Part shown: in pieces, positions 5,949 through 31,698 of the stretch
How the letters are laid out: each line of letters starts with the position of its first letter
Numbering within the stretch: position 1 is the first letter of the stretch
Source: Macrolepiota albuminosa
Taxonomy: Eukaryota > Basidiomycota > Agaricomycetes > Agaricales > Agaricaceae
Direction: 5' to 3'
Length of the DNA: 64,000 nucleotides
Assembly: GCA_027475525.1 (NCBI GenBank)
Contig: JAMWFC010000132.1
Span: 124,001 to 188,000 of the forward strand
Position numbers and translations under genes: made by a program
Notes under the pieces: model-generated
Told to the model about the DNA's origin: nothing
What the model saw: the letters and a program-made list of their open reading frames with translations, nothing else
The model's database searches: none

Positions 5949-5989
5949 TCAGAACAAGATAGTTCCTTTACCAGTAACAGGTAATGCAT

Positions 5990-7045: not shown

Positions 7046-7049
7046 AACC
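7037..7049 (-). other. Primer-binding site, internal initiator tRNA-Met type
   Basis: Directly after the 5' LTR the minus strand reads GGTTATGGGCCCC. This complements the anticodon-loop region of initiator tRNA-Met rather than a tRNA 3' end. Half-tRNA priming of this kind is established for Drosophila copia. The ATG inside it (7045-7043) is the best start for gag. Confidence 0.65.
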
Positions 7050-7439
7050 TGATGCAGCATTATAGCGCAACGGTGATGTATTTGTATATAGTAGACAATA
7101 TAGTTATACACTGGAGTCAAATATCAAGAGATAGTTGTAAGTATAAGTTTAGAATAATGTAAAATGGATGACGCACCTGGAGTCAAATATCAAGAGATAG
7201 TTTGACTCCAGGGTACGACACAATATTTATAATCGTGAATATAGATATATGTCATACTTTCATAATAAATGTATCATAATGAGGTAAAGAAAAGACACAA
7301 TATTTATAATCGTGAATATAGATATATGTCATACTTTCATAATAAATGTATCATAATGAGGTAAAGAAAACATACGTGTATGTGAGGCAAAGATGATGTC
7401 AGAAATGACATATAGTGCTACGCGTCACATTCCTTAACA
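7050..7439 (-). repeat. Copia 5' LTR with an internal 77-bp duplication
   Basis: This is the same LTR as 2487-2799 but 77 bp longer, because 7217-7293 is repeated exactly at 7294-7370. Counting that segment once gives 313 bp, exactly the length of the partner LTR, which supports an assembly origin for the extra copy. Confidence 0.9.
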
Positions 7440-7444
7440 ACTAT

Positions 7445-9290: not shown

Positions 9291-10105
9291 ATAGACGAGC
9301 TACGATTCGTGCCTTCGGCACGAATTTCGTAGCTCGTTGGGGGCTTCGCCCCCAAACCCCCCCCAACTAAGCCTCCACCCTAACCTCACTTCGTTCGGTT
9401 AGGGCTCCAAGTATGTATAGAGAACTCAGTGCTCACCCCCCAACTAAGCCTCCACCCTAACCTCACTTCGTTCGGTTAGGGCTCCAAGTATGTATAGAGA
9501 ACTCAGTGCTCATTCCTGGCCTCAACCTCACTTCGTTCGGTTAAGGCCTCCGCATATCACAACTCAGTGCTCATTCCCGGCCTCAACCTCACTTCGTTCG
9601 GTTAAGGCCTCCGCATATCACAACTCAGTGCTCTTTCCACAACTCTCAAAGCATTATTGTAGACTAAATTGAATTTTTCAGATTTTATTCAGCATTTATA
9701 AATCTTTAAAAAACTAAAAATCAGTATATTAGTAGCATTTGAATTTTTCGTCATTTTCTGGTAATTTTCCTGGAATTATTTGAGCATTTTCCACTAACAT
9801 CTCCTGAAAAACAGCAGTGTTCAATCTCAGTTTGCCTCAACTCTCAGAGCATTATTGTAAGCTAAATTGAATTTTTCTTGAATTTTTCAGATTTCTTTAA
9901 GCATTTATAAATCTCAGAAAAACTCAAGTCAGTGTATCAGTAGGCCTCGAATTTTTTCTGATTTTTCAGTGATTTTATCTGAATTTTCTAAGCATTTCTA
10001 ATGCTGAAATGAGCCAACTCTTATGTCGTTACCCCAAAAGGAAGGTTCTTGGTCAGCCTTGGTCAGCATTAAATTTTCCCAGACGTCGTCCCATATATTA
10101 TAGAT
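9291..10105. repeat. Satellite-like composite unit, copy 2
   Basis: The same hairpin (about 9293-9355), a short version of the minisatellite (a few units with ggttaaggcctccgcatatc instead of ggtttaggcctccgcatttc) and the same AT-rich tail are repeated. Both copies end in a variant of gtcgtcccat. A 77-bp exact duplication lies at 9359-9512. No coding content. Confidence 0.72.
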
Positions 10106-13824: not shown

Positions 13825-15560
13825 TCACAACAGTGACACATGGAACTTAGAAACTATCCTGCATGCCTGCAGCGCCTGGGGCAGTTCCAGCATGTAGTTA
13901 AATGTGTTCGGCTCTGCCTCAAGGACTCTATATGGTTCAATCCACTTCGGACACAGCTTACTTGCTCTGCCTTTTGGCAAGTTCGAGTTCTTTGTCAAAA
14001 GATACACTAGGTTCCCTTTCTTGATGTCTGAATCATCACATCTGCGATTATTCACATGTTTTGTCTGCCAGACACGCAATTCTATAATTGCATTATAGGC
14101 ATCTGCTAAGTTTCATAGCGCATTGTGCGCAAACTGCTTTACTCTAACATGAATAGCTTCGTTGGTGCGAAGTTCACGAGTCATGGATGGCATATAGCCA
14201 TTATTGAGTTCAAAGAGTAAATACCCTGTGGTTTCAGATATGCTTGCGTTTATTGCAAATTCAACAAGTGGACATCTGTCCACCCAGTCCTTCTGATCAG
14301 GACGTATGAATGCTCACAATATTTGTGCAATATTCCTATTTGCTTGTTCTGTCTGGCCATCTATTTGCAGATGAAACAACATTGACATGAGCAACTTTGC
14401 TCTGAGCAGCTTGTGCAACTCCTTCTACTATTTGGAAATGAACTTAGCATCTTGATTGCTTATGATCAAACTTGGCAGTCCATGAAGGTGAACTATCTCC
14501 TTGAGATAGATTCAAGACAAGTCTGAAGCTGTCATAGTGGTCCTTACCGAAATGAGATGGACCATACTGGTTATTCTGCAAATCACTACCCAGAGGTAGT
14601 TAAAACCCTTTGACTTGGGAAACGGACCTATAAAGTCCATCCCGATCAAATCCCAAGGTTTAACTGATATAGGAAGTGAATGAAGCTTCCCCAGTGGCTT
14701 CAGTGTCGGTACTTTTGACTGTTGACAAAGCTCACATGCCAAGCAGAATTGGCTCGCTTCTTTGGCCATTTGCGGCCACCAGTACCAGCGTCGCACATAG
14801 TCCAGCGTTTTCTGAGTTCCGAAGTGGCCCACTACTCTATGGGCCTGGTCCAGGATAGTCATGATCAACAACCTCTCCTGGGGAATGCAGATGATGTTGG
14901 ATCCAGTGGATCTGGTAAGGTAGATGAGCTGCTGCTCTACCTTGAAGCACAAATGCGCTTGGATATTGTTCAGAATCTCTAAGAAGAGATTGTCATCCTT
15001 GTATCCTTGCTGGATATGTGTGCAAAATTGTGCATTTCCCAAGTCAATTGGTACAGGGTGATGGTCATGCGAGTCCAATGCCTGCTGGAGAGTCATTTCC
15101 GCACTACTAGGGCACACCTCCTGCCTCCTTTCTTTGCCTGGCTGGGGAATCTCATAATCCACCAGCCCCTGTGCCTTGATATCATGAGCTTCTTGCTGTT
15201 CTTGCAGTTGCTTGCTGCGACATGATTCCTGCGCTTGCATGGCACGTACATAGCTTGACTGTATGTTCTTTGATTTCATGGAACCTATGCAGAGGCAAGT
15301 CCTCACCCTCTGGGTCGATATGTTTGTCTGCCTGCACATAGTTGTGCACGTCATGGATGTCATCTCAAGTATTACTCTTGAAATATCGAGACAGGCAGTC
15401 CGCCACCTTGTTCAATTCATCTTTTACATAGGTGATGTCAAACTGATATTGCAACATGTAGTTGATCCAGCGACGTTGTTGCAGTGATAGATGCACTTGG
15501 GTCTTAAAAAACTCGAGTGCCTTGTGATCTGTAATGATATGGATCTTATACCCCATCAGC
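13825..15560 (-). pseudogene. Gypsy G1 pol, C-terminal half: RNase H end, integrase
   Basis: The minus strand begins inside RNase H (GYKIHIITDHKALEFF) exactly at the target duplication of the 16-kb insertion. It continues through the RNase H C-terminus (KVADCLSRYF near 15380). Integrase follows with the zinc-binding HHCC module (H..GHFGTQ..C..C near 14840-14730), the first catalytic Asp (GMDFIGPF near 14640) and the second in SNQDAKF near 14450. The GPY-type C-terminal domain ends VSLL at 13825. Stops and frame breaks occur between 14512 and 14080 and around 15363. The matching N-terminal half lies at 31699-33600. Confidence 0.85.
15554..15560. other. Target-site duplication, left copy
   Basis: CATCAGC here is repeated at 31692-31698, flanking the 16.1-kb inverted-repeat element. 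On the gene strand it is GCTGATG, encoding the Leu-Met of the RNase H sequence DKLMGYKIH. Joining the two flanks with one copy of this heptamer restores an uninterrupted reading frame. Confidence 0.85.
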
Positions 15561-16577
15561 CACATAGAGACATCACAATGGTATGTGTCATATGTTGTAT
15601 GGGAGCTTGCTTTGTGCCATACCATATGTGTCCAGCAGAGTCTGCTACACTGGAGTGGAGCAGTCTCCACAGTGCTGTAGAATACAGAGCTGCGGACTTG
15701 TCACAATGTGCTGTATGACACAGTCCAGTGGATCAGTAAAAGGCAGGCACACACATGCACATGCAGGCCCAGCGGATGCCAGCAGACACTAGCGGATGTC
15801 AATGTGCATCAGCAGCCACTGGCGGGCATCAGCACACGAGTGAAAACCTCCTCCATTGGCGGACTTCATGGCATGAATAAACCCTCCTTGAGGTTCCCCA
15901 CTTCCCTCCTCTTTCCATTCCTCCCCGCAATAACTCGAGGCTGCACATCTCCCCTTCCCTCCTTTTCCCACCCCCGACGCCAGCGTACATCCACAAAAGG
16001 GCCCTGCAAACCTATGCAGGCCTACGCAAGCCACTAGCAGACATCCACACAGACGTATGTTGACGGACTCAAACCTACACAGGCCCACGCAGGCCTGCAC
16101 AGGGCACCAGCGGACATCCACAGAGGCCTACGCAGGTCCACAGAGTCTGGTTGGACCAAGGAAAAAGGTAACTTCGTCTTGCCCGCCATATGCCTGTGGG
16201 GGGGAATCAAACCCCCGGCCTTGAGAAAGCCTCCAGCAATGGAACACACATTTAACCGTTGCACTACAGGTCCGTTACTAACGGATAAATTCAAAGGTTG
16301 GATAACACAATGAACAGACGCCTACCTACGTTTTTGCAGGTTCCCGTATGGATTTTTTGAGGTGGAAGGGGGGTGGCATACCTCCCAAAAGAGTTTTCGT
16401 GGCTTGAAAGGGGCGTTGGCATCAGCAGCCATCAGCTGGCATCTGTTGGAGTTCGTCGGCAGCCATCGTGACCCACTGGCATCTGTTGTGCATCTGTCAG
16501 CATCTGCTGGATATTTGCTGGTATCCATCGGCATCCACGGAAATCCATCAGCAACCCCCAGCATTGTCTGGCATCAG
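15561..16577 (+). repeat. Left terminal inverted repeat with Pol III-like module
   Basis: It begins CACATAGAGA and matches the reverse complement of 30648-31691, at roughly 90% by eye in the outer 200 bp, mostly by transitions. It contains a tRNA-like segment (16195-16270), GC-rich stretches with caggcctacgcaggcc-like units, and near its inner end a run of short units of the type ggcatctgctgg. The inner boundary, by loss of similarity, is at about 16577. Confidence 0.8.
16195..16270 (-). other. tRNA-like (A-box/B-box) segment in left inverted repeat
   Basis: The minus strand carries an A-box-like TAGTGCAACGG and a B-box-like GGTTTGATTCC inside a sequence closed by CCTGT/ACAGG. The equivalent in the right repeat (30985-31064) has a perfect B-box. 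It is too diverged or unusual to call a functional tRNA. Confidence 0.5.
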
Positions 16578-18360
16578 GACGGGAGAGAAGAAAACAAGGT
16601 GTGTGGGTGTCCACCGCATGGGATGGCATCTTGGAGAGCATGAGGGGTGGCGGAAGAGGGATGGGGGTGGGGAGAAAGAGGGGAAAGAGGGAAGAGGAGG
16701 AGCGTGGGTGTCCGCTGGTACGCCAGCGGACGTAGCAGACGTCGGATGTCAGGTCAGGGAGGAGGAGGGAAGCGGGGTGCATGTGGTGGATGGGGATGGC
16801 ATGTGAGGTAGTGTGGGGAGTGGAGAGGATGGCACTGGGGAGAAAGAGGCGGAAGGGTGGAAGAGGGTGCATGAGTGTCCACTGTCTGCTGGCATGCCAG
16901 CGGACGGTAGCGGACAGTAGCTGACATCGGCATGTGAGCCAGCTGACATCAGCAGTGCAACCAGTCCCAGTTTTTCAGTGGGAATATTCATTTATTGATA
17001 TTCAATATTGTGTACAGTGGTGGGTTCTACTCCTACTCCACCTTAATGGGGTCTAATAGTGACAATGGAATATTGAGAGGCGGGTTGGACTCCTGCTAGT
17101 GACAAATATTTTAATAGGGCCTATAAGCTCTAATAAAATATCCATTCATTACTCGCTAGCATTATCAAGTTGATCCGTTCAAAACGCTAGAAATTACTGA
17201 AGCGGGTATGGGTTGGATGACTTTGCGCATAGTCACAAGATCTGGAATGATCACATGCGCAAAGATGAGCAACCCATGCCACTGCAGAAATCTCTGGAGT
17301 TTTAAACGGATCACATTAATGATGCTAGCGGATATTAGCGGCCTGCTGCTCTAATATGCACTAGCAGGAGTTGAATCCACCTCTTGTGCACAATATGAAA
17401 TATCAATTTATCAATATTCCATTGTACCACAGGCGCTTACTTAGAAGTCAGGACAGTGTTCACGCTAGCAGACGTCAGTGGCCTGCTGCTATTATATAAT
17501 GTGCACTAGCAGGAGTCAAACCTGCCTGTCAGTGGCCTGTGGTAGTTGATCTGACCCACTTGATTTTCAGTATTGTGTGGAGTGGCAGGTTCGACTCCCC
17601 TAGTCCAGACTTCCCTAGTCCACCATAATGACATATAATGTTGTCTTTTTATACTGCTGCATTTTCGCACTAGATGTAAACTGTACTGATTTGTGGTAAG
17701 GACTTGTGGTTGAATGGAATATTGATACAATGATATTTCATATTGTGCACAAGAGCCAGGTTCGAATCCCACTAGTGCACATCATTAGACATGACATAAC
17801 TTTGTTTTACTAATTGTTATTTATGTCTTTCTACTGCCCACCCTTGTGTAATCGTTGAAGAGTGTGTTGTTTTTTGCGTTCATGAGAGTGGCATAACGGA
17901 ACAAAACAATGGGACAGTTAATCTTAGTAGACCTGAGTCCTGTCCAAACTAATTGAAATGTCTGTAGTAAAGTGCTATAGCCTAGTACACAATACTAGAG
18001 TGATATTTATGTATAACTGTCCAAACTAATTGAAATGTCTGTAGTAAAGTGCTATAGCCTAGTACACAATACTAGAGTGATATTTATGTATAATCCACAG
18101 AATGTCCTGTGGTCTAGCAGAATATTGTCAGTTTATGTTCCTTCTAGTGCACAACTGGAGGTAATGGATCAAACAGATTTATAATGGATTCTAGCAGAAT
18201 ATTGTCAGTTTATGTTCCTTCTAGTGCACAACTGGAGGTAATGGATCAAACAGATTTATAATGGATTCGTCAGTGGCACAACAGGACGGATAATCTTGAC
18301 AAAAAATAACCAACGGAAAAGCCAAGAATTATAGTAACTAAGGATTAAATTACTCATCTG
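16578..18360. repeat. Non-coding interior with tRNA-like repeat cluster
   Basis: 16578-16980 is GC-rich, purine-heavy DNA with more of the ccagcggac-type units. From about 17000 to 17790 there are at least five copies, in both orientations, of a repeat recognised by a B-box-like core (ggttcgactcc or its complement), an A-box-like tgg..caatggaatatt and the end ctagtgca. Examples are 17366-17450 (minus) and 17700-17785 (plus, with a perfect GGTTCGAATCC). Exact 77-bp duplications lie at 17940-18093 and 18113-18266. No protein-coding gene is supported. Confidence 0.65.
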
Positions 18361-18890
18361 ATATGTATTCCTCCTCTTCATTAGATTCATGTAATGCATC
18401 TGGATGTGTATTCCTCCTCTTCATTAGATTCATGTAATGCATCTGAATAGAACCAATCCTCATCAAGCAGGTAGTCTGCTGTCAAAAATGCAAAGTCGTC
18501 CTAGATTCATGTAATGCATCTGAATAGAACCAATCCTCATCAAGCAGGTAGTCTGCTGTCAAAAATGCAAAGTCGTCCGGTATATATGGCCCCTGAGGTC
18601 TGGGAAGTGTGATGTCTTCATAGTTCACTATCAGGCCTGACAATGAAGATGGTGAGGGTGACTCTGACATATCAACAGACACATCATCAGTACAACCAGC
18701 TTGATTGAAAGGGCCAATGGGCCTACATCGACCATGTTTTGCTCTAGCGCAAAATTCTTGTTCTGTTGAAATAAATTAACTATGATTACCAGTGCCAAAT
18801 TATACTCACATTGTTGATACAATTTGTTAATTCTTCTCTGATCCTCATGTCGAGTCATACATGTCTTATTCCTCCCACTCCTGGACATTG
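18360..18890 (-). pseudogene. Unrecognised acidic C-terminal ORF, frame-broken
   Basis: Read on the minus strand, a basic N-terminal piece (MSRSGRNKTC, then TRHEDQRRINKLYQQ) is followed by a possible intron (gtgagt...caacag). Next come a Cys-containing stretch (CARAKHGRC, near 18740) and an acidic tail rich in Asp/Glu/Tyr. The two parts do not join without a stop. A 77-bp duplication (18425-18578) and a natural 41-bp repeat (18364-18445) disturb the end. I do not recognise the family; cysteine spacing hints at a small metal site but nothing firm. Confidence 0.35.
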
Positions 18891-19501
18891 TTACCAGTAG
18901 GTAGGGTTGGAGAAGGAGATTGTTGGAAGGGGGAAGATGGGATTTGAAGAGCCGTTACATCAAAAAGCGGTAGAAGATTTTCTTTGTCATTGGCTGCCAT
19001 GCCTCCATCCATCTCTTCTGCCATCACAAGAAATAGCGGCAGAAGGTTTTCTTTGTCCTTGGTCACCATATGTCTGCCGCTCCGGACTTCCATTTGTCTG
19101 CTGTCACCGGCTGCCACAGCCTCCATCGCTGTTAGTCCTTCTGCTCCTTCACCAACAATGAATAGAGGTGGCAAAGAATCGTCGTCCATCTTCTCTTCTG
19201 CAGGAATGAACAAAGGAGGCAAAGAATCCTCTTCCATCTCCTCTTCTGCAGCAATGAACAAAGGTGGCAAAGATTTGTCTTCCGTCTCCTCTTCCACAGA
19301 AATGAACAAAGGTGGCAAAGATTTGTCTTCTGTCTCCTCTTCCACAAGAATGAACAAAGGAGGGATACCCTCTAAGTCAGGGTCATTAATGGATGGATTA
19401 GAAATATCCACCTGGTCGTCGTCAGTTTCCCCCAGCTCCCTGAATGTCCCACAGACATGAGCTGCTGAGGTGGAAGGAAGTTGGGATGCTGGTTGAACCA
19501 C
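18866..19501 (-). CDS. Acidic repeat protein (PPLFI repeats), unknown
   Basis: An intact 211-codon frame lacks any known domain. Its centre consists of five tandem units of about 17-18 residues around (S)LPPLFI-x3-EE, followed by two KENLLPLF units, so the protein is strongly acidic, repetitive and probably disordered. The corresponding DNA is visibly repetitive (19150-19370). It partly overlaps the preceding ORF, suggesting that both are exons or remnants of one gene. No homologue can be named. Confidence 0.4.
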   Translation of the reverse strand: MVQPASQLPSTSAAHVCGTFRELGETDDDQVDISNPSINDPDLEGIPPLFILVEEETEDKSLPPLFISVEEETEDKSLPPLFIAAEEEMEEDSLPPLFIPAEEKMDDDSLPPLFIVGEGAEGLTAMEAVAAGDSRQMEVRSGRHMVTKDKENLLPLFLVMAEEMDGGMAANDKENLLPLFDVTALQIPSSPFQQSPSPTLPTGNNVQEWEE

Positions 19502-19824
19502 AATGCGAGAGTTTTCTATTGTAGCATCCGTCTGCTTGATTCCGCTTTCTAATCATTGTCTCTCCAGGAAGGCCCAAAAGCACGATTTGAAGTGTGTGGA
19601 CGATGCAGATGTGCTTCGATTTAGAGAGATGGGCATGTTGAGTTGGACTGTTGTTGGTTGGTATGCAGATGAAGGCATGACTATTAGAATGTATGTGGTG
19701 CCATCATTCTTTAAACAATTTTGACACCAATTATAGTCATGACAATATGTCATACTTGACCCATGCTAACTGACCTACCTTTCAAGACTCCTTTCCTGAC
19801 CTTGTTAGTGACCTCAACAAGAAG

Positions 19825-21265
19825 ATGATGGATTACATGTCTGCTCTTCTTGGTAGAGACATGCCGTCCAACATGCAATCACCCCATGATTTGACTCCTC
19901 CTATCCTTACACGCCATGACCTCATCCTTGATCTGGATAGGGATGGATTCCCAATATTACCAGCAGATCCAGGACCAAATATATTTCAAACTCAGGCAGA
20001 ATTGGAAATGCTTGTCCGGGACTATCTAAATACTCATTACAGTGAATCCTAGTTTTCTCCACCTTTGCTCATCATCTGATTACTCTGTCGGAAATTGCGT
20101 CTGGTTACTGGTATGAATCTGCTCCTTACAAGGCAGTGAGGACCAATGATCAGCAATTCATACATTCAAGGTATTTTCCAGAGGGTCTGATATTCCAAGA
20201 TCCTCATAATCTTGGTCGGCCTGAGCTATTGTGTCTGCTGAACTTCTGGAGAGACTGTCAAGGACAGTATGGATCTGGTGACACCTTCCACTGGATGGTT
20301 TATCTCAACCGTCACAAGCAGCCAGTAGCTGCCAAGTACGGCACCCAAGCTGATTGTGAAAAAAATGTGGCAGCAGCAGCAGCACGTAAGGCTACACGCA
20401 AAAATAGAGGGAAAAATCGGAAACAGAGGCCAACACTATCAGCGGTAGTTGATGGCAACAGTAGGACCATTGCTAATGATGGAGCCACTGATGGCGGATC
20501 TACTTTAGTCACCGGATCTGCGGTAGTCGATGGCAACAGTAGAACCATTGCTAATGATGGAGCCGCTGATGGCAGATCTGCTTTAGTCACCAGATCTGCA
20601 GCCAACTTGGAGTGGCAACTGGGGCTTACACTTCCCCTGTCATCTAGCGTACCACACACACCACTGCCTGACTTACAGGAGGAACCTCCTGCCTTGCGCT
20701 CACCACACACTCCCCAGCCTCAGTGCCACAACAGATCCACAGTTCACAACAAATCCCGACCAAATGTATCAGCTTCTGCTCATGACGAGTCCGCTCTCAA
20801 TAAATCCGTTCATGACGGATGTGGTGATGATACAGCAGTGGTAGATGCCACTACCATCCACCTCTTACAATAAAGAGGATGGAGCTATCCAGATCCTCCA
20901 ATTAATGGCCCTAGTAATGGTTCCCCTAGATATAAAGTGTCAAGAAGGGTGCTCGACATTCTTCAAGATGAGGACAATGACCAATTTGAAGGTATGGTTC
21001 CCCTAGATATAAAGTGTCAAGAAGGGTGCTCGACATTCTTCAAGATGAGGACAATGACCAATTTGAAGGTGAGGGAAGGCTGGCATTACAAAACCAAAAG
21101 AAGCGCAAGGCATTGCCTAACCAATTGTCAACAAATTCCAAGCAACCCCGCAAGTCTCAAGCACAAATGCTACAGGAAGATGCAGCTCGATACATTGATA
21201 TGTCTACACCAGCAAAAAGGAGTAGCAGCCGCACTAAGGTCATTCGACCAGTCCGCCGTCATTGA
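19825..21265 (+). pseudogene. Unrecognised cargo gene of the inverted-repeat element
   Basis: Two blocks of good coding character lie in different frames. The first, 19825-20052, contains LTRHDLILDLDRDGFPILP. The second begins near 20066 and contains GYWYESAPY and FPEGLIFQDPHN, then LCLLNFWRDCQG. It continues from 20136 into a Ser/Asp repeat region (two copies of VVDGNSRTIANDGA) and ends, after a TAA at 20871-20873 and a 77-bp duplication at 20917-21070, in a basic tail (KVIRPVRRH) at 21265. Counting the duplication once puts both sides of it in one frame. The pieces recall uncharacterised Agaricomycete proteins, but I cannot name a family. The break near 20053 is a small indel or an unrecognised intron. 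Confidence 0.4.
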
Positions 21266-21401
21266 TGTGGGGAAGGGGGAAATGTTACATTACATTTTTG
21301 TAAACTATAGTGTTACAAAAATGTAGCAATGTCTGCAATGTCTATCATAATGAAAAAAAAAATTGTACAATAACAAACCATCCATCTTAAACCGTCCATC
21401 T

Positions 21402-22213
21402 TCACTTGTCTTTTGTTGCTTTCCATCTCTCAGTAAGCCAACTGGATGATCGGGTCCGTTGCATCGGCGGCTGACTACTTTGGGAGTTGCTGTGAGCCCG
21501 TCTTCTTAGGCCAGGGAGAGGGTTCTCGGCAGGGACTGCCGGAGGAACAGAAGATGGTTGAGGGGGTGATGGAGATGTTTGTGCGGGAGACGTTCCTGAG
21601 GATGTTTGTTGAAGTGGGGACGGAGCGATGGTGAGAGCAGATAAGTCAGTGGCATGATGGGATTGGTCAGTGGCGAGGGCAGAAGTGTCACCAGTGGAAA
21701 CGGATATGTTAGCAGTGGCAGGAGATTGGTCAGCAATGGGGTCAGGAGTGGTTTCTTCCTCTTCAACGATGGGACCAAGTCCACTGTGCCCTGTTGGATG
21801 CACTGCCACATCATCCTGAGCTGATGGACTGGAGGGACAAATAGAGATGTGAAGTTGATTCTGCAAAGCTGACGGATCCATCTGGCGTGGTCTTCAAATG
21901 TCTCACCCGCAAGAGAAACATTTGTCTGCAGGGTTTCTATGTGGCCACCGAGCATGTCGACCTAAGTCTGGTAGCGACGGAAAAAGTCCTCAATATGTGG
22001 TAATCAGCTCGCCTCAGCCATGATAAACCCATCCCGCACATGCTCCCCAATATTCTGCAATGGTTCCTGGAATCCATTCTCCATCCTGTCCAAACGGCTC
22101 TCCACCCCTGCCATTACACCAGCCACAATGTCCTCACTGTGACTAGACTCCATTGCCCGCTCCTTGCCATTTCTCTTGACCGGAAGAGGATCCACTGGGC
22201 AGTTGGAGGTCAA
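21402..22213 (-). pseudogene. Unrecognised coiled-coil-like ORF
   Basis: One minus-strand frame from about 22213 to 21506 is broken by TGA near 22004 and TAG near 21962, both readable as single transitions (Arg, Gln). It encodes a helical, amphipathic segment (AGVESRLDRMENGF, then VDMLGGHIETLQ) reminiscent of the N-terminal coiled coils of fungal retroelement Gag or transcription-factor-like proteins. A Ser/Thr/Pro-rich sequence follows in an overlapping frame. No catalytic motif is visible. Confidence 0.3.
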
Positions 22214-22379
22214 TGGTTGGGATGGATGGATGGACGGTTTTGATGGTCCTGCGATTGGACTGGCTGGTTCATCTGCTAACTATTGGTTAGCTATTTGAGC
22301 AGGAAAAGAGTTTCATACCGTCATCACTCTCGATAATCGTCACTGACTTCTTTCTCAGTGGTTTTTTCCCCTTAGCAGG

Positions 22380-23295
22380 CCAAAAATAGCAAACGTCTTA
22401 ATGTTCATTGCACTAAGCAGGAGTCAAACCCACCTACTGCAACACACAATGAACACCAATAGATAATATTCCACTAGACCATCAAAGCTTAATGTACACG
22501 TCAAACCCACCTACTGCAACACACAATGAACACCAATAGATAATATTCCACTAGACCATCAAAGCTTAATGTACACAGCTATAGTCTAAATAGATATCAT
22601 GTCACCCTGTTTAAATTAGGACATTATGACTTTGTTTATTATACTGTGTAGTAAATAACAATTAGCTAAGCGAGTCAAAAATTCTAAACAGTTTGACGTA
22701 AATGCACTAGTAGGAATCAAACCCGTCTACTGCAAGACATAATAAAGACCAATAGATAATATTCCACTAGACCACCGATGCTTACTGTACATTGCTATGA
22801 TGTAAATAAACATCAGTCTATTCTTCTGTGTGTGGTCAAAAATATTTGAGTTCGATGCTTACTGTACATTGCTATGATGTAAATAAACATCAGTCTATTC
22901 TTCTGTGTGTGGTCAAAAATATTTGAGTTTGATGTCAATGCACTAGAGGGAGTCGAACCCACCTAATGCAAGATACAAGAAATACCAATGGGAAATATTC
23001 CACTACACCACAGACACTTCATGTATAATGCTATGGTGTAAATCAATATCAGTTTAATATTCTGCTACAAACCATGGTTTTTCTCTTTCCTGTATACTTC
23101 TATGGTGTAAATAAATATCAGTCTAATATTGTCAATTTAATACAGATGCACCAGTTGCAGTAAAATCTCTATCCATTCAAATTCTGTATGGGTCCGTTTG
23201 TGCACTACATGAACACTGTCCTGACTTGTAGTAAGCACCTGTGGTACAATGGAATATTCATCAATTGATATTTCATATTGTGCACAAGAGGTGGG
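22380..23295. repeat. Second tRNA-like repeat cluster
   Basis: Four or more copies occur: minus strand at about 22411-22495, 22700-22790 and 22930-23020, and plus strand at about 23225-23295, where the sequence runs into the N gap. The minus-strand copies show TGGTCTAGTGGAATATT (A-box) and GGGTTCGACTCC-like B-boxes. The plus copy matches the reverse complement of 17366-17480 closely. Two 77-bp duplications (22423-22576, 22776-22929) lie inside. No gene seen. Confidence 0.65.
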
Positions 23296-23395
23296 NNNNN
23301 NNNNNNNNNNNNNNNNNNNNNNNNNNNNNNNNNNNNNNNNNNNNNNNNNNNNNNNNNNNNNNNNNNNNNNNNNNNNNNNNNNNNNNNNNNNNNNN
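23296..23395. other. Assembly gap (100 N)
   Basis: Exactly 100 N separate a tRNA-like repeat on the left from integrase coding sequence on the right. The round number marks a scaffold join of unknown length. The end of the nested gypsy pol and its 3' LTR are missing here. Confidence 0.99.
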
Positions 23396-26300
23396 AGCAC
23401 GTAAGCGCCTCCACGGTTACGGGAGATAACTACCAAAGGTCCTAGATAGCGAGGGCGCATTTTCTTGTTGTATGATGTTTCGATTTTGGAGTTGCGCATA
23501 AGCACTAGCGCACCCCTCGGGAAGTTGTAATCTTTGATAGTGGCGCTATGCTCGGTTTCGAATCGCAGGGCTGCTTGGCGACGGGCGCTAAAGACTACCT
23601 CGTGAAGTCGCTCCAAATCTTCTTTCCTTCGTTGGAGGTCAATAGCTCGTCTGGCGATAAGGTCGGTAGTCGCTAAGATGCTGTTGGGTGCTGGCTGAAG
23701 ATAAGTTGCTTCTATAATGTCGGCAGGGAGTAACGGATGGGTGCCAGTAGCCGCGTAGTAGGGAGAACAACCCATGCGCTTACGAATAGTAACTCTTTCC
23801 GACCAGAACACTGAATAGGTCGCTTCGCTCCAACGAGACTCGTCGCCATCGACTGCCTTGAAGAGTGCTTGCCGAACGTCAAAGTGGGGTCTCTCTACCA
23901 GTCCATTGGCGCGCTTGTTGTAGCCAGATACTCGAATGTGGTGAATTTTGTATTTCTTGGCGAGGTAAGTTAGCGCTTTGATGATGGGCGCACCGTTATC
24001 CGTGACGATTTCTCTTAGCGCTCCCCAACGGCAGATGACGTCTTCAAATAGCCACTTGGCGACCGCGTCGGTATTTTCTCTTTGGAGCATTCGAAATTCA
24101 GGCCAGTGGATTAGCGAGCAACGACCTTGAATGATGTACTTGTTGCGACCAGATTTAGGCATATGCATGGTGTCGACGTAGATTTTGCTGAAGAGGGGAG
24201 CTGGCGTTGCAACGGTTGGCGGTATGAGTACTTGGCGTGTCTGTTGAATTTGGCAAAGGTGGCAAGTCCTAATGTACCAGGCGATGTCGGCACTAGCGTG
24301 TGGCCACCAAAAGCGTTCTAGCAGAGAAGCTCGGGTAGCGTACAGACCTCTATGTCCTAGCTCGTCATGCATAGCGCGCAAGACTCGTAAGCGACCTTCT
24401 GGCTTGATGATCAGCTTGTGAGCGCCATCTCGATTTCGTCGCCAAAGTCTGTTGTCGGTAAAGAAGAAGCGGGTAGCATAGCGGATAAAGGTCGCGTATT
24501 GTTCATCGGTAAGGTCTGGGGGTCGCTTAAGGTCTTGTAGCCATTGTTCAACGATTAACAAGCGACTGTCTTCTGCCTTTGCTTTGGCGGATCGGGGAAC
24601 GGCATCGTAGGTCAGGTTTTTGCTGTCTTCTCTTAGCGGATGGGGTTCTTGTACGATTTTTACTGGTGGCGAGTCTTGACTGCAAATGCTTGCCGTATAG
24701 AACGTGAGGGGTGCGCTAAAGGTCTCGGGGCGGTAAGGGACGATGGGATGTAACAGGATGCTGGTAGGCTGTTGCCGTCGTAATAAGGGAATTGGCTGTT
24801 GAATGAGGTGCACGAAACCATGTAGTCGGTCGATCCAGTCCTCGAAATCGCTATCAGCCTGTGGGTCCACTGCCGGGTCGCCAGGCTGCCGTGGTCGCCT
24901 AGAGAGTCCATCTGGTCCGTGGAAAGAGCTCTTGACGTGCACCAACTCAAAGTGAAACATGAGGATAGCGACTACCCACCGGTTCATGCTAGCGGATGGC
25001 TGGATGTCGGGATTCTGCAGCATGCCTTTGATGTACCTAGCGTCGACTTCGACAATCAGGTTCCGCACGCCAATCAGATACATCTTTAGCGCTCGGAAGG
25101 CTTTGAACAATCCATAGAGCTCTAGCTTAGGCTGACTGTAGCGAGACTCCCGGTCGTTTAGCGTAATAGACCCAAAGCGGTTGTAGCGTCGCTGTTTTCT
25201 GTTGTCGCTAAGGCACTGGCACAAGAAGTAGCCAACGGCAATGTACGAGGTATCCACCGCCAAGATAACTGTTTTCTGTTGTCGCTAAGGCACTGGCACA
25301 AGAAGTAGCCAACGGCAATGTACGAGGTATCCACCGCCAAGATAACAGGGTCGGCAGAGGTATAATCGATGGGGACTAGGGGCTTGGCGTCCTGCAGAGC
25401 TTTTACTAAGTCGCGTTGGGCAGTGACCTGGTCTGGCCCAAATTCGAAGGGCTCGTTAGCGCGGGTGAGTCGGTTAAGGGCATGTGCGCGATGGGCAAAG
25501 TTCTTAACGAATATTCTAAGAACGCCAACAGTACCAAGAAAGGCGCGAACTTCAGATAAGTCGCGGCAAGGACCCCAGCGCTCCAAGAGTGCTAAGCGAG
25601 ACTCGTCGGGAACGCGACCGTCGGGAGTGCAGATGTGACCAAGTATTTTGAACCTTGGCGCGCAAAGGAGGAGTTTGTGACCGCTAAACGTACCACCGCT
25701 ATACTTCATACGTTGGAGAACTCGATTGAGCAGCTGGAAAAACTCCCATAGCGCTAAGCGAATGTTGTGGTTCTCGGGATGGGTCGCCGGTAAGCCGTTT
25801 ACGAGTCGCCAGTCTTTGGGACCTTTGACGCCAACGTCATCAATGAAGCTTAAGACGTTATGCGGTATCTCGGGTTGGAGGATGAATGTGATGTCGTCAT
25901 GAAATATGGGGACAGAGTTTGTCCAGCCCATCGGTAAGGTGACTAGGCGCAAGGCGCCAAACGGAGTTTGAAACGTAGTGAGGTCACGGGAAGAAGGGTG
26001 GATTAAGCGTTCATCATAGCCAACGTAAAGATCAAGGGTGGCGCCACAAATACGCCCGGCAAAGGACTCGGCAAAGTGGTCAGGGAAAGGCGGTACGCCA
26101 GAGTGTCGTATGGTTACTCTATTCAGCGGCTCAAGACTGTGAACTATGCGTAGATTGCCGTTCTTTTTGAGAACACAGAACCAACGGGAGCGGTAAGAAC
26201 TATTAGAGGGCTCGTAGACGCCAGCCTGTATCTTAGTCCTAATAATCTGGCAGACCTCGGCTTCGATTCCAGGCGGTAACGGTCGGTTGTGCTCAGTCCA

Positions 26301-27026
26301 CGGCACGTGAGGGATGGTCGGGATTACGACAGGCGGGAAGAAATCTGTGCGAAGGCTGCCGCGTTCTGAGTCCTCCCAGGCAAAGGCTTTGTCTTGCTTA
26401 GCGACAAGATCGGTAAGGACATTCAACTCATCTTTGGTCAAAAATCCTGTGTCGTGCTCCTTGGCGAACTGCTGCTGGCGCTCCGCGGTAAAACGTCCGG
26501 TGGGCTGAAAGGGTCGCGGATTCGGTGTTAAGGTCGGTATGGCGGCAAGAGGGTCGCCAATAATTTGGCGCTTGATCCTAAACGTCTCGGGAGAGTGCGT
26601 AGCGATGGGTTTTGTTTTAAGCGCAACTGGCTTATATTTCTTTTTAACTTGAACCCCTTTCCTTTTGGGAGCGTTAGCTTGGTTATACACAGATGTGGAA
26701 AGGGGAACTGTAGCCTGAGGAGCGGCAAGTCCAAGAACGGCAGGAGACGAGGCTCCGGGAAGGGTAGTGAGATACGTATCGGTAGACGCAATATTTTGAA
26801 ACGATTCGGAGGCGGTAAGGTATAAGTAGGCAAGAGAAGAGTCGGTAATGTTTTGATTTTTCTGGGAAGGCTCTGCGTCGGTAGTAGGTAAAGTAGTTAA
26901 AACATCTTCGTCAAGAAAAGCAGTTGACATAACAGTTACAAGACCAGTTGAATGGTCAAATTCCAGCGTTAGCGCTACATCTCCGTGATCGTCGCCAATC
27001 ACCTCCTCGATGGTCTGTGAAAACAC
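23396..27026 (-). CDS. Nested gypsy pol: reverse transcriptase, RNase H, integrase (3' partial)
   Basis: The frame has no internal stop apart from one caused by a 77-bp duplication (25192-25345); counting that segment once joins 27026-25263 to the rest. Reverse transcriptase (about 26300-25800) has the catalytic box FIDDV instead of YLDD. RNase H has AVDTSYIAVGYF near 25340-25250. Integrase has its HHCC module near 24390-24240, then YVDTMHMP, TDNGAP and GLVERPH for the D,D35E triad (24180-23880). The sequence is cut by the N gap inside the integrase C-terminus. Translation beyond the gap to 23137 is an antisense reading of a repeat and should be ignored. Pol is in the -1 frame relative to gag, implying frameshift expression. 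Confidence 0.9.
25192..25345. repeat. 77-bp duplication in nested gypsy RNase H
   Basis: 25192-25268 recurs exactly at 25269-25345. It is the only lesion in an otherwise perfect pol frame. Confidence 0.92.
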
Positions 27027-29311
27027 CGGTGTGGAGGCTCGTTGGCGTGTTGGTCGGTAAACTCCGGGGGCTTAGCGCGGGCGCCTTTTCGTTGTCCCCT
27101 AGGGAACGTTGGCACCGTTCGTCGGATTCCAGAGTTGGGGTCGCTAATGGTGAGGGTCGTTTCCTCGTCGGTAACTGTCTTGACGACTGATCGCGCCAAG
27201 ACGTCGAAGGGTCTGCCAAGTAGTAGGTCGTAAGCTGGTGAACGTAAGATGTGGATCTGAAGATAAAACGTGATGTCGCCAAGGGTGCACGGCACATTCT
27301 TGGCGAGGCCTAGGGATCTGTCTACCGTACCGTTAGCGCTCTGCATATTTAGTATAACGGTAGGGTCGTAAATAAGGCCTAGATCGTTAGCGACTTCCGC
27401 TGCCATAGAAATGATCTGGGACCCGCTATCCACAATTGCCTCTACTTCGTGCTTGTTGTCTATGGTTAGCGCTACCGAGCGGATAGCGTGCGATTCTTGA
27501 GCGACGGTAAGGATTGCGGGGTCTTCTCCATGGTCTACCGACCTAAGGTAGGTCTCCACTGGATCCACAGAGGTAGCGTTAGCGATGGTGTCGGCAGGAG
27601 AGTCTTCAGTGTCCAGAGAGTCGACGGTAACGGAAAAACCAGGGAGCGCGTCGTCGAGATCCTCGACCTCGGCAACGGCTGTCGCCAAGGGTCGTCGGGG
27701 AGTGACTGCCGTCTTGACTTGGTTGCGGACGTCGGGAGCAATACTACAAAGCTCTTCTACTGATAAGGTAACATTGGTTTTCATGATGCGGTTAAAGACG
27801 TGGTTGGATTTCTCGATATCGAATATTGGCGCAGTAGGTCGGTAGCCACCCTCAGGACGTTTCTCGGGAGCGGCAAAGTTTCGTTGTGCGGGAGCATGAT
27901 AACGATCGGGAATCCCTGAATAGGGATGGAGAGGCGGCAAAGGCGGTTCGGGAGCGGTAGCGGACGACGATGGTTCTGAAGCAGGAGCAGGGGCAGTGGC
28001 AGGCGGTGCGGTAGGAGCAGGTGTCGGTAACTTGCTAGCGGGAGGCATCGGCTTGTATCCTTTAAGAGGTTGTTTAGGCTGCTTAACTTCAACCCCATCA
28101 AAGACCTGATTCTTAAGCGAATCCAACTCCTGTTGGAGCTTGGCGATACGCTCTTCCCGCGAGAAAGTAGGATGGTCGCCAACGCTGTCGAAGTGTAAGA
28201 CCTCGTGAATCATCTGTTGTTGGGTCGCCTGTTCGGGGTCGGGGTTGGCGTTGCCAGATAGCGTGCCGGTAACGATTTGTCCTGGGTTGCGCCTATGCCA
28301 TTCATCTACCCGCTCCTGGAAGGACTTCTTGTCTGGGTAGTTGGGGATGGTGGCGCCAGTGGTGAGGACTATCTTGCCGTCGATAGCCCGTCGAATTCTA
28401 CCTTGGCGAACGTAATTCTCGAGGGTAGCGCAGCGTCCTCTAGTCATGGTATGGCCAATTTCCCCACAGAAGTGGCAAGGGCCAGGCGCGGGTACGTTAG
28501 CGGGTCGGTTAGCAGTCAGGTTGGTGGTAATCATAGTTTCGATACGTGTCATCGCGGAAGCGACAGCGGCGGTAATAGCAGCATTGAGCTCCTCTTTCTT
28601 AACGAAGTCGGCAACAGGAGGCGGGATGGGAATGATACCGTTAGTTCGCTCAGGGGGTGGGCTCATCCTAGCGCGTTGCAGTCCAACGCCAGTGTCCGTT
28701 CCCTTAAGAACCCATTTACCGGCTTCAAAGACGTCGGCAACGTTATAGGGCTCGTCTGGGTGATGAGCCTGGTGAACTATCTCTAGGCGACGAGCAATAC
28801 GAGTCCAAAGCGAAGTCGGGATGCCTTGCTGGAAAAGGCGACGCTCCTCGTTAATATAGAGCTTGCCGTTCTGCAGAAGCCACCTAGCGATCTTCTGGAA
28901 CTCGCGGTAATACGTAGAGAATGCGCCAAGAGAAGAAGTGCCACTGTCGAAAGATTCCTGTACTAGTTTCTGTAACTCGTTTACCGTGTATCGGGTAGCC
29001 TCCTCAGCGCCAGGGTACAGCTGGATCACTGCTGTCTTCCAGTCCTCATACGAAGCGCCTTGGGCGGGAGCTGTCGGCGTGGCGGGAACGAGCGCTGCAA
29101 ACTCGGAAAGACCAGTCCAAGTCTCTGCCGTGTCGTACGATACGTATCTTGCCGCGTACTCCTTCATCTGCGTGTGGTCGGTAATGTTACAGTCTCTGAA
29201 TAAATACTCCAACTCCTTGAAATACTGGGAGAGCTCCCGTGGCTTGGTCTCGTCCCATTTCGGTGCCGAGAAGTGGTTGCGTGGCGGCATGCGCTGAACT
29301 TGTTGTTCCAT
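26999..29311 (-). CDS. Nested gypsy gag-protease
   Basis: An intact 770-codon frame starts at the ATG at 29311. Residues 1-220 form the Gag capsid-like region (KPRELSQYFKELEYLF). A zinc knuckle CHFCGEIGHTMTRGRC lies near residue 280, a Pro/Ala-rich linker at 420-510, and a retropepsin with IVDSGSQIIS near 630 and LLLGRPFD near 705. Protease is therefore fused to Gag, and pol begins in an overlapping -1 frame (open from about 27070). No stop, frameshift or CGA-to-TGA scar was seen, in contrast to every other retroelement in the window, so this copy is the youngest. Confidence 0.92.
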   Translation of the reverse strand: MEQQVQRMPPRNHFSAPKWDETKPRELSQYFKELEYLFRDCNITDHTQMKEYAARYVSYDTAETWTGLSEFAALVPATPTAPAQGASYEDWKTAVIQLYPGAEEATRYTVNELQKLVQESFDSGTSSLGAFSTYYREFQKIARWLLQNGKLYINEERRLFQQGIPTSLWTRIARRLEIVHQAHHPDEPYNVADVFEAGKWVLKGTDTGVGLQRARMSPPPERTNGIIPIPPPVADFVKKEELNAAITAAVASAMTRIETMITTNLTANRPANVPAPGPCHFCGEIGHTMTRGRCATLENYVRQGRIRRAIDGKIVLTTGATIPNYPDKKSFQERVDEWHRRNPGQIVTGTLSGNANPDPEQATQQQMIHEVLHFDSVGDHPTFSREERIAKLQQELDSLKNQVFDGVEVKQPKQPLKGYKPMPPASKLPTPAPTAPPATAPAPASEPSSSATAPEPPLPPLHPYSGIPDRYHAPAQRNFAAPEKRPEGGYRPTAPIFDIEKSNHVFNRIMKTNVTLSVEELCSIAPDVRNQVKTAVTPRRPLATAVAEVEDLDDALPGFSVTVDSLDTEDSPADTIANATSVDPVETYLRSVDHGEDPAILTVAQESHAIRSVALTIDNKHEVEAIVDSGSQIISMAAEVANDLGLIYDPTVILNMQSANGTVDRSLGLAKNVPCTLGDITFYLQIHILRSPAYDLLLGRPFDVLARSVVKTVTDEETTLTISDPNSGIRRTVPTFPRGQRKGARAKPPEFTDQHANEPPHRCFHRPSRR

Positions 29312-29666
29312 AGCGACTGTGTTGGCGAGTTCGGTTAGCGGTAGTGGGGAAGGAGTTCTAGAAATTGGCGACGGGGTAAGAGAAATGAGTTGTGAAAGAG
29401 GCGTTAGCGGAGTAATGGGAGTGATTGACTGTGGTACGGCAAAGGGCGACGCTAAGGGGTCGTCGGTACTATAATCGAGGGAATGCGGGAAGAGATCAGG
29501 AAAAGCGTCTACAGTGGCGTTCTGTAGTTCCTGGGCGAGAGAGAGACCCGGTAAGGCACCAGGTGGTTGTGGAGTTGATGGGTGGGAAGGAGCAATGCCT
29601 TCTGCCGACTGGTCTAGCAGGCGGCGCCTACGCTGGAGACGGGTTTCTGGCGGAATTCTGCCTTAG

Positions 29667-29688
29667 AGATCCCTCGCGGTGGGCTCCA
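29667..29688 (-). other. Primer-binding site of the nested gypsy
   Basis: Three bases after the LTR end (...GTCATCA) the minus strand reads TGGAGCCCACCGCGAGGG, beginning with the TGG that complements a tRNA 3' CCA. It should pair with a tRNA 3' end; I did not assign which tRNA. The 29312-29666 leader has short uninformative ORFs. Confidence 0.55.
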
Positions 29689-29691
29689 ATT

Positions 29692-30642
29692 TGATGACGC
29701 CCAAAGTTTGGTCAGTAACAAATGTAGCGATTGTGTTACCGTACCAAGAGTGTGCGTTGGGCGCGCTATAAGTGTGTTGAGGAGTCCCGGGCAGGTCCCA
29801 GAGAACGCGTCTGTGAAAAAGGGTAAAAGTCGGTAACGGGGTCGGCAAGTGGTAAGCGCTAAGGTAAAGCGCCTAAGGAAATGCGGTAAGTGAACACGGC
29901 AAGGGTGAGCGGCAAGAGCACGATAAGCTTAGCGAGGTTCTAAGCGTCGATAATGCCTGCCGTAGTTGCAAGGCGCGAGTATGTCGAGTGTTGGCGAACG
30001 TCTGTAACTACCGATGAGTTTTGACGTTGCCGACCGTAGCGTAAATGAGCTCTTGAGCGTAAGGGAGACTGAAGTAAGGGGGAAACTGTGGTCTATTCGT
30101 CTGCTGTTCTTCTATGTACAAGTCAGTAAGTACTTTTATACTACAATGAGTTTGCCGTCGCCAGTGGCTAATGACGCCAGAGTGCGGTAAACTGGAAAAT
30201 TTCAAAGGGGTAGCTCCAACGGTTTCAGATCCCTACCGTCCTTTGAGGACCCTTGGCGCCACCAGGCGGCAGATCGCGGTACTAAACCATCACTCCATCA
30301 CCCTTCTGTCTGTCAGAACACCTAAGCGACGTTGGGCGCCAAATCGAGACGGTAAGCGGTGTCAGACGCCAAGGTCAAACGCCAAGCTGTCCGTCAGTTT
30401 TTGATAGATCATCAAGCTTCTCGCTAAGCGCTGTCGTCAGTGACTGATGCCATCTGTCAGTTGTCATTCTTGCTGCCGTCGGCGCTATCATTGATTGGAT
30501 CTGCTTCTTGCCGTGCGCGGCCGTCAGAAATGGCTTAAAATGGGTAGAACGCGTGCGCTAAGTTCGGAACGAGTGCGGCAAGGTTTCCGGAGCCGGTGCC
30601 GAGCCTGCCGTTGATGCGCCTAACCTGTATGGGGTCCTATCA
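29692..30642 (-). repeat. 5' LTR of the nested gypsy
   Basis: On the minus strand it starts TGATAGGACCCC at 30642 and ends GGGCGTCATCA at 29692, about 951 bp, with a TATA-like tagtataaaag near 30140. Its start lies only five bases from the inner edge of the right inverted repeat at 30648. The matching 3' LTR would lie in the N gap. Confidence 0.6.
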
Positions 30643-30647
30643 CCGGA

Positions 30648-31691
30648 TGATGCCAGACAATGCCAAAGGTTGCTGATGGATTCCTGTGGATGCCGATGGA
30701 TACCAGCAAATATTCGGTGGATGCCAACGGATGCACAACAGATGCACAATGGATGCCAACAGATGCCAACAGATGCCAGCAGGTCATGACGGCTGCTGAC
30801 GAACTCCGACGGATGCCAGCTGATGGCTGCTGATGCCAACGCCCCTTTCAAGCCATGAAAACTCTTTTGAGAGATATGCCACCCCCCCTTCCACCTCAAA
30901 AAATCCATACGGGAACCTGCGGAAATGTAGGTAGGCGTCCGTTCATTGTGTTATCCAATCTTTAAATCTATCCGTTAGTAATGGACCTGTGATGCAACGG
31001 TTAAATGTGCGTTCTGTTGCTGGAGGCTTTTCCAAGGCCGGGGGTTCGATTCCCCCCCACAGGCATATGGCGGGCAAGACAAAGTTACCTTTTTTCTTGG
31101 TCCAACCAGACTCCATGGACCTGCGTAGGCCTCTGTAGATGTCCGCTGGTGCCCTGCGCAGGCCTGCGTGGGCCCACATAGGTTTGAGTCCATCGACGTA
31201 CCTCTGCATGGATGTCCACTAGTGGCTTGCATAGGCCTGCGTAGGTTTGCAGGGCCCTTTTGTGGACGTACGCTGGTGTTGGGAGAAGAGGAGGGAAGGG
31301 GAGATGTGCAGCCTTGAGTTATTGCGGGAAGGAATGGAGAGGGGAGGGAAGTGGGGAACCTCAAGGAGGGTTTATTCATGCCATGAAGTCTGCCAATGGA
31401 GGAGGTTTTCACTTGTGTGCTGATGCCCGCCGGCGGCCGCTGACGCACATTGACGTCTGCTAGTGTCTGCTGGCATCTGCCAGGCCTGCGTGTGCATGTG
31501 TGTGCCTGCCTTTTATCGATCCACTGGACTGTGTTATACAGCATATTGTGACACGTCCGCGGCTCTGTATTCTACAGCACTGTGGGGACTGCTCTGCTTC
31601 AGTGTAGCGGACTCCGCTGGACACGTATGGTATGGCACAAAGCAAGCTCCCATACAACGTATGACATGTACTGTTGTGATGCCCTACTCTG
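30648..31691 (-). repeat. Right terminal inverted repeat with Pol III-like module
   Basis: This is the inverted counterpart of 15561-16577. Read outward-in on the minus strand it starts CAGAGTAGGGCATCACAA, followed by the shared gtatgggagcttgctttg. It contains the tRNA-like segment 30985-31064 and inner ggcatctgttgg-type units. It may originally have extended further, because the nested gypsy LTR begins right at its inner edge. Confidence 0.8.
30985..31064 (+). other. tRNA-like segment in right inverted repeat
   Basis: A stem CCTGTG/CACAGG closes the segment. Inside are an A-box-like TGATGCAACGGTTAA and a perfect B-box GGTTCGATTCC within a GC-rich T-arm. The 80-nt length and the extra stem (ggaggc/ggcc region) resemble a class II tRNA, but the anticodon arm is not convincing. 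It may be a Pol III promoter carried by the element. Confidence 0.5.
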
Positions 31692-31698
31692 CATCAGC

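Follow-up and report, generated by a model that had tools for sequence, protein, structure and literature searches.

An internally deleted giant transposon, very probably of the KDZ superfamily, inserted in a Gypsy element of Macrolepiota albuminosa

A 64,000-nucleotide stretch of Macrolepiota albuminosa DNA (contig JAMWFC010000132.1; hereafter the window) contains a long unit with kilobase inverted repeats (IRs). Very probably this unit is a member of a high-copy family of giant DNA transposons of the KDZ superfamily, for which the best placement is near Kyakuja. The copy is non-autonomous because its KDZ gene was lost by internal deletion. Membership in the KDZ superfamily, the 7-bp target-site duplication (TSD) and the CA..TG termini are known features, while kilobase IRs are unusual for the type. 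The host agaricomycete probably belongs to Lyophyllaceae. Coordinates are collected in Table 1.

Table 1. Features of the transposon copy and its insertion site (window coordinates)
Feature	Position	Strand	Remarks
7-bp target-site duplication, left copy CATCAGC	15554..15560	.	repeated at 31692-31698
Left tip, L type, CACATAGAGA	15561..15570	+	outside inverted repeat
Left inverted-repeat arm	15571..16790	+	88.7% vs C95 right arm over 1240
Remnant of conserved interior ORF C	18866..19552	-	acidic repeats PPLFI-AEEE; cut by internal deletion
Internal-deletion junction	19519..19524	.	C95 positions 3760 and 9493 fused
Conserved interior ORF A, two pieces	20046..21326	+	contains 77-bp tandem duplication at 20917
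Remnant of conserved interior ORF B	21402..21961	-	
Assembly gap, exactly 100 N	23296..23395	.	nominal length; family sequence ends at 23295
Nested Gypsy retrotransposon, gypsy-2	23396..30642	-	LTR 29692-30642, then gag-protease, RT, RNase H, integrase
Right inverted-repeat arm	30643..31681	-	inner end truncated by gypsy-2
Right tip, R type, inward reading CAGAGTAGGG	31682..31691	-	
7-bp target-site duplication, right copy CATCAGC	31692..31698	.	sequence match

The sequence from 15561 to 31691 is one insertion, flanked by a perfect 7-bp TSD, and its host site is a Gypsy RNase H frame. The first-pass annotation had read the two flanks as halves of one frame bordered by the same heptamer, with an empty site in a sister Gypsy, and each of these points is borne out. 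When joined (300 bp per side, one heptamer), the flanks align without a gap over 599 bp, at 84.8% identity, to an uninterrupted Gypsy on contig C120, a copy that is itself nested in another element of the same transposon family. The sister Gypsy copy, which carries CATCAGC at 34350, aligns with the joined flanks at 71% over 34059-34656. The 16.1-kb length given earlier holds for the assembled element, but it is nominal in that it includes the 100-N gap.

Searches with the end motifs at up to one mismatch returned 226 L and 210 R matches in the host genome, compared with 1 and 0 for the reversed-pattern controls. From this number of ends and the typical full size of 15–19 kb, the share of the genome taken up by the family would come to an estimated few percent. 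Facing L/R pairs were drawn from exact matches on contigs C1–C78 among the first 100 listed of the 226 L and of the 210 R motifs. In this exact-match set, 41 of 100 L and 41 of 71 R motifs have a partner and 59 L and 30 R do not, in part because near matches fall outside it, as does the window's own R tip with its one mismatch. Five of the resulting 43 pairs were left out, which gave 38: C24:591811, verified beforehand, C25:128933, C78:176505 and two alternates situated 77 bp away from an end that was retained. A perfect 7-bp duplication flanks 30 of the 38, one pair (C24:437615) has an 8-bp duplication, one has 7 bp with one mismatch, and six share none (C5:96599, C6:2884302, C14:1092614, C14:1152818, C54:267837 and C71:318101); these six may be chimeric or wrongly paired. 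Off-diagonal pairings of the flanks, used as a control, gave no duplication in 1406 combinations. This difference excludes a chance origin of the heptamer, and the check for 7-bp duplications at other copies that the first-pass annotation had advised thus supports its reading of the window unit as a single mobile one. In a separate test, C25:128933 turned out to share its flank with C25:143204, which may reflect a duplication in the assembly.

The same data bear on the possibility that the unit is a pair of independent repeats, or a chimera made in assembly, instead of one mobile unit. The gap lies within the element, and exact 77-bp tandem duplications, many of which occur in the assembly and some inside the window element, look like assembly (join) artefacts. 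Such a composite is nevertheless extremely unlikely given the identical heptamer, the single ancestral frame across the flanks, the uninterrupted site in two Gypsy copies and the matching duplications in 32 of 38 further units. The elements in the window and on C114, C24, C95 and C120 have interiors in common in long blocks of about 85–98% identity, and all five are flanked by exact 7-bp duplications.

The ends of the family are built in two layers: two unlike 10-bp tips, followed from base 11 by IRs of about 1.0–1.5 kb. The tips differ at bases 3–8 and 10 and are not part of the repeat, and the R tip of the window copy departs at one position from the genome-wide form CAGGGTAGGG. In the window copy, 15571-16576, the part of the left arm still paired, and 30648-31681 form four paired blocks of 87–91% complementarity. 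The repeats of about 1.02–1.04 kb described previously therefore exist as kilobase IRs, but they start at base 11 and appear so short because gypsy-2 cuts the right arm; the left arm is unbroken, and 1240 bp of it can be aligned with the right arm of the C95 element.

The KDZ gene resides in full-size relatives, which measure about 15–19 kb and contain it along with three other conserved ORF regions. The first-pass annotation had listed KDZ among candidates for profile searches and had suggested looking for full copies; the C95 element encodes a KDZ domain (PF18758, E=3.9e-38), with CxC2 (PF18803, E=9.5e-15) in the neighbouring ORF. Of the 32 TSD-consistent elements from the 38 further pairs, 20 contain KDZ; it was not found in the other 12. 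The gene is read towards one tip from a distance of about 6.5 kb, with a range of 5.6–7.4 kb in 19 of the 20 KDZ-bearing copies. Residues D106, E166 and E169, which we take to be catalytic, are invariant in 11 aligned sequences. The same protein has 148 matches in the host genome, where many KDZ frames carry stops. The hallmarks of the superfamily, a KDZ domain, a CxC cluster and a target duplication of about 7–8 bp, are all found in this family. The earlier statement that no known transposase is visible is thus true of the window copy, whose gene is deleted, but not of its full-size relatives; the reading of the unit as an undescribed element family fails on the same finding, and an undescribed superfamily was rejected on it. 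Reading one deleted copy alone can make a known kind appear new.

The internal deletion in the window copy, at about 19,520, removes about 5.7 kb (C95 positions 3760–9493), including the KDZ transposase gene. None of the ten interior ORFs of this copy that were scanned against Pfam gave a DNA-transposon transposase. The C95 and C120 elements also have ORFs A, B and C, and both of them have, upstream of ORF B, an ORF with a Cys-rich stretch that is missing from the window copy. For the C120 counterpart of ORF A there is one database relative, from Termitomyces sp. Mn162, at 39% identity; the predicted AlphaFold model of this relative (mean pLDDT 35, two sequences) is unusable. A protein search with ORF B found no match among 7995 scored candidates, and ORF C has no Pfam match. 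These results, together with the recurrence of the ORFs, could indicate an undescribed superfamily with its transposase among the conserved ORFs and KDZ as a passenger. However, the position of KDZ relative to the tip, together with a TSD length and termini that are those of a KDZ branch as described in PMC12730594, makes this very unlikely. To long-TIR elements of the Mutator, hAT, Plavaka or Galileo/P type we give almost no credence. Many Mutator-like elements characteristically have long TIRs (PMC3310237, in the portion available), as does Galileo (as described in PMC3573991), and hAT7 families make 7-bp duplications (according to PMC12730594), but KDZ is the only DNA-transposon transposase domain across eight C95 and ten window ORFs, and the Pfam matches of these ORFs (E up to 0.1) include no Mutator or hAT transposase domain. 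Plavaka, as described in PMC12730594, has 2- or 3-bp duplications and CATCA..TGATG or TGT..ACA termini, and the window family differs on both.

The large ORFs at 23137-29662, previously described as unrecognised cargo, belong to the nested Gypsy with its gag-protease, RT, RNase H and integrase, and the cargo reading was rejected. Gypsy-2 is itself cut by the assembly gap, its 3' part and second LTR being absent from the assembled sequence.

These observations lead us to propose a model in which KDZ transposase from intact copies would act in trans on the L and R tips, excising the element by cut-and-paste and reinserting it into staggered 7-bp cuts. The KDZ-less window copy would have moved in trans into a Gypsy, and gypsy-2 would then have entered its right arm. 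The sequences themselves show the insertion, its 7-bp duplication, the family, KDZ within matching elements and the deletion in this copy; that KDZ is the catalyst, that movement occurs in trans and in what order the deletion and the insertions took place are what we infer. KDZ would likewise have driven in trans the 12 of 32 elements in which it was not detected.

Arms from the L and R sides intermix in an arm tree, although support is weak for 30 of its 53 inner branches and a few of its rows sit on very long branches. Tips of mixed type were not encountered, and family interiors occur in both orientations, the inverted one in three KDZ elements read towards R and in C24:591811. On this basis we tentatively suggest, at rather less than even confidence, a KDZ lineage with two-layer ends in which the inner arms exchange freely and the outer tips stay unmixed, so that the interior inverts, the arms lengthen by inward copying and transposition still depends on a single tip of each type, L and R. 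If true, flipping of the cargo with respect to the ends would belong to the ordinary life of such a transposon. The same-type facing pairs, L-L on C72 and R-R on C71, share no duplication in either case; that elements of L-L or R-R type are lacking is no proof that the transposase requires both kinds of tip, because descent from one L-R ancestor predicts the same. The unlike tips do provide a natural tag for asking if an L end is paired with an R end by KDZ transposase.

Among known systems, Kyakuja of Laccaria bicolor resembles the window family in its 7-bp duplications, CA..TG termini, agaricomycete host and KDZ transposase. The 7-bp duplication, which had been called unusual, is already published for this branch, described as having 7-bp TSDs, CA..TG termini and no TIRs (PMC12730594, in the portion available). 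The window family has CA..TG termini as well, but its 1.0–1.5-kb IRs from base 11, behind unlike 10-bp tips, depart from the TIR-less description, and it is therefore called Kyakuja-like here and not a Kyakuja member. 7-bp-type KDZ elements can thus bear kilobase IRs, unlike the published Kyakuja families, so that TIR absence may be an unsafe criterion for the branch. Kyakuja-1_LB and -2_LB carry a TET/JBP dioxygenase, according to PMC12730594; a PF12851 (Tet_JBP) profile search gave 0 matches in the host genome and likewise 0 in the control genomes. The Chlamydomonas and Agaricus bisporus papers (PMC8226300, PMC7473861), in their available portions, name Kyakuja without describing its ends.

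The assignment to a branch of KDZ is tentative, since kilobase IRs contrast with a TIR-less Kyakuja and Cryptococcus KDZ1-3 do have TIRs; the Kyakuja-like placement rests on TSD length and termini as described. A Zisupton- or Dileera-type element with long TIRs is an unlikely, though appreciable, alternative. The Cryptococcus neoformans elements KDZ1-3, of about 9–11 kb and shown to move, have a KDZ transposase, a CxC cluster and TIRs, as does the window family, with TSDs of 8 bp (KDZ1) or 4–8 bp (KDZ2, KDZ3), as described in PMC12810828, and one 8-bp duplication occurs in the window family. Their TIRs, however, are 139–241 bp long and their cluster is CxC1, as opposed to kilobase IRs, 7-bp TSDs and CxC2 in the window family; the Zisupton value of 8 bp is found in 1 of 38 pairs and 7 bp in 30, and the CA..TG termini and unlike tips agree with Kyakuja as described in PMC12730594. 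The available portions of PMC12810828 make no mention of tip asymmetry in KDZ1-3. Ectocarpus and Chlamydomonas likewise have giant KDZ elements, which reach about 30 kb, have nested insertions and extra genes, and often have a dead transposase gene that implies movement in trans; their hosts are algae, and PMC12477816, as far as available, does not describe their ends. The ends themselves resemble those of Galileo in Drosophila, with TIRs to about 1.2 kb, proposed arm exchange and TIR growth from the interior (PMC3573991, in the portion available); its transposase is of the P superfamily, and the likeness to the window family is one of resemblance only.

The insertion in the window is real. 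The first-pass annotation had described a unit flanked by the same heptamer, CATCAGC, with flanks forming the two halves of a single sequence, and both descriptions hold: joined with one heptamer, the flanks align gap-free over 599 bp to an insertion-free Gypsy copy (84.8%) and also match the sister Gypsy copy in the window (71%). The inverted repeats are likewise genuine, at 87–91% in four ungapped blocks.

Coordinates of features in the window
Feature	Position	Strand	Remarks
Heptamer, left	15554-15560		CATCAGC
Heptamer, right	31692-31698		CATCAGC
Deletion junction	19519-19524		position 3760 of the C95 element fused to 9493
Nested Gypsy (gypsy-2)	23396-30642	minus	domain matches: gag-protease, RT, RNase H, integrase
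gypsy-2 LTR	29692-30642		~950 bp
77-bp tandem duplications	1158, 7217, 7553, 8693, 9359, 17940, 18113, 18425, 20917, 22423, 22776, 25192, 35020, 36270, 54636, 55080, 56718, 57526, 61765, 62257		exact

The window is C26:124001-188000 in a genome of 100 Mb (129 contigs), and a search of this genome with the 1-kb arm returned 593 first-look candidates, 40 of which were scored to give 41 matches. A tip was visible in 29 of 30 fetched arms (the exception being the stretch L029), and only two types were found, CACATAGAGA (L, 16 arms) and CAGGGTAGGG (R, 13 arms). Allowing at most one mismatch, these motifs occur 226 (L) and 210 (R) times genome-wide, while reversed-pattern controls gave 1 and 0. When the first 100 listed L motifs were paired with the 71 listed R motifs, all exact matches on contigs C1–C78, 43 L-R combinations faced each other within 45 kb, and 2 pairs were of the same type. 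These took up 41/100 L and 41/71 R motifs; that the remainder have no partner among the listed motifs is at least partly due to mismatched partners, such as the window's own R tip, being absent from an exact-match list. The 7-bp duplications that the first-pass annotation had proposed to look for at other copies were found in 40-base snippets from both ends of 38 distinct pairs: 30 were perfect, one was 8 bp, one was 7 bp with one mismatch, and six pairs had no duplication, while mismatched pairings used as a control gave 0 of 1406. Including the window element and the copies on contigs C24, C95, C114 and C120, 37 elements are consistent with target-site duplication (TSD). All are L-R, the shortest 410 bp and the longest 29 kb, with a median of 16.1 kb and 19 of them in the 15–19 kb range. 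The smallest is a miniature derivative (G000:C65:2500416-2500825; 410 bp) that has both tips as well as a perfect 7-bp duplication; short units of 1.6, 2.6 and 2.9 kb also exist. Two R ends 14.3 kb apart, at G000:C25:128933 and 143204, have the same flank and equally distant KDZ copies, and are a local duplication, either real or assembly-made.

Interior sequence of the window element recurs in the C95 element, 17,207 bp long, and in the C120 element, whose 28,089 bp include a nested Gypsy. In the C95 element, Pfam detects a KDZ transposase domain (PF18758, E=3.9e-38) and, in the neighboring ORF, CxC2 (PF18803, E=9.5e-15). A protein search with 886 candidates identified 470 relatives; the top five by E-value are 51–55% identical, one being from Sphagnurus paluster. 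All 11 aligned sequences share D106, E166 and E169, which, by analogy with known DDE transposases, may be catalytic. In the same genome, the C95 KDZ protein has at least 148 matches (144 of 283 candidates scored) and PF18758 at least 162 (150 of 351 scored). Of the 32 TSD-consistent elements in the 38-pair set, 20 contain KDZ, and in 19 of these 20 it is 5.6–7.4 kb from the tip towards which it reads; KDZ therefore belongs to the family itself and is no mere neighbor. Other KDZ matches, e.g. G000:C11:807411-807986 (E=1.6e-60), score above those of this family against the Pfam model and may be separate KDZ families. Among the other conserved interior ORFs, ORF A has one relative, from Termitomyces sp. 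Mn162 (39%), at E<=0.001 in a search of 5.8 billion proteins that yielded 2405 candidates. None of the 7995 candidates scored for ORF B is a relative, and Pfam gives no match to ORF C. Termitomyces and Sphagnurus, the sources of the ORF A relative and of one of the five KDZ relatives, are both Lyophyllaceae, which hints at a host probably within this family.

Up to C95 position 3760 the window copy follows the C95 element collinearly; there begins the deletion that removed the KDZ gene, and a smaller piece at about C95 12234-13255 is also missing. KDZ is absent from the C24 and C114 elements too, through different deletions. A 100-N gap directly follows the last base of family sequence in the window copy, 23295. 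Elsewhere, the gypsy-2 LTR is present in two copies ~10.3 kb apart (e.g. C92:2392199 and 2402482), and since the window has only one, the gap probably conceals several kb. This Gypsy, ~11 kb in full copies, is very abundant: its LTR region gave 1824 first-look candidates, with 47 matches from the 40 scored. It adjoins the right arm at arm position ~1030, which accounts for the apparent arm length of 1.02 kb; arms of the other copies measure 1239 bp (C95, 96.3%), 1550 bp (C24), 1382 bp (C120) and 1008 bp (C114). The Gypsy inside the C120 element (G000:C120:449719-477797) measures ~11.6 kb, is bounded by 177-bp direct repeats (97%) and is related to the window's host Gypsy, so that Gypsy and KDZ element have each inserted into the other.

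Left and right arms are not separate lineages: on a 57-arm tree built from 43 L and 14 R arms, with 30 of its 53 inner branches weak, the side label changes 12 times, compared with a shuffled mean of 12.7. When 43 L arms were compared with 15 R arms over their first 400 bases, no L/R difference in base frequency exceeded one half in any column after base 10; these rows were picked by their tips, so that the fixed difference at bases 3–10 follows from the selection. Arms picked by homology have the same two tips, and none of 29 is a hybrid. The reading direction of KDZ is towards the L tip in 17 of 20 elements and towards the R tip in three (C6:740798, C25:143204, C36:333412), and the interior of the KDZ-less C24 element is inverted as well. 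The C24 element and the C6 copy have one internal junction in common (C95 14042/1470); the C24 copy contains no Ns, while the fetched C6 stretch has a 100-N gap. That two loci have one junction speaks for an inherited inverted subfamily rather than an assembly error; the subfamily could have arisen when the inverted repeats exchanged sequence, or through template switching between them. Arms that lengthen in a similar way, through uptake of interior sequence, are described for Galileo (PMC3573991).

The window contains 20 exact 77-bp tandem duplications, while all other unit lengths between 30 and 150 bp account for just two (61 and 122 bp). In the fetched stretches L031–L039 and L150 there are 14 more with the 77-bp unit, plus one with a unit of 78 bp. 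These are most likely products of assembly-graph joins at k=77. As 77 is not divisible by three, they shift reading frames, and frame breaks at these sites should not be taken as mutations.

Among published KDZ elements, the Laccaria Kyakuja families have 7-bp duplications and CA..TG termini without TIRs, and Zisupton and a Dileera element have 8-bp duplications (PMC12730594). Cryptococcus KDZ1, KDZ2 and KDZ3 are given TIRs of 241, 139 and 169 bp (PMC12810828), and for Ectocarpus, giant KDZ elements are described that contain nested insertions and are moved in trans (PMC12477816). Within the open-licence listings and passages covered, KDZ elements with kilobase repeats did not turn up. On this comparison, the family is a Kyakuja-like variant of KDZ elements and a possible member of Kyakuja itself.
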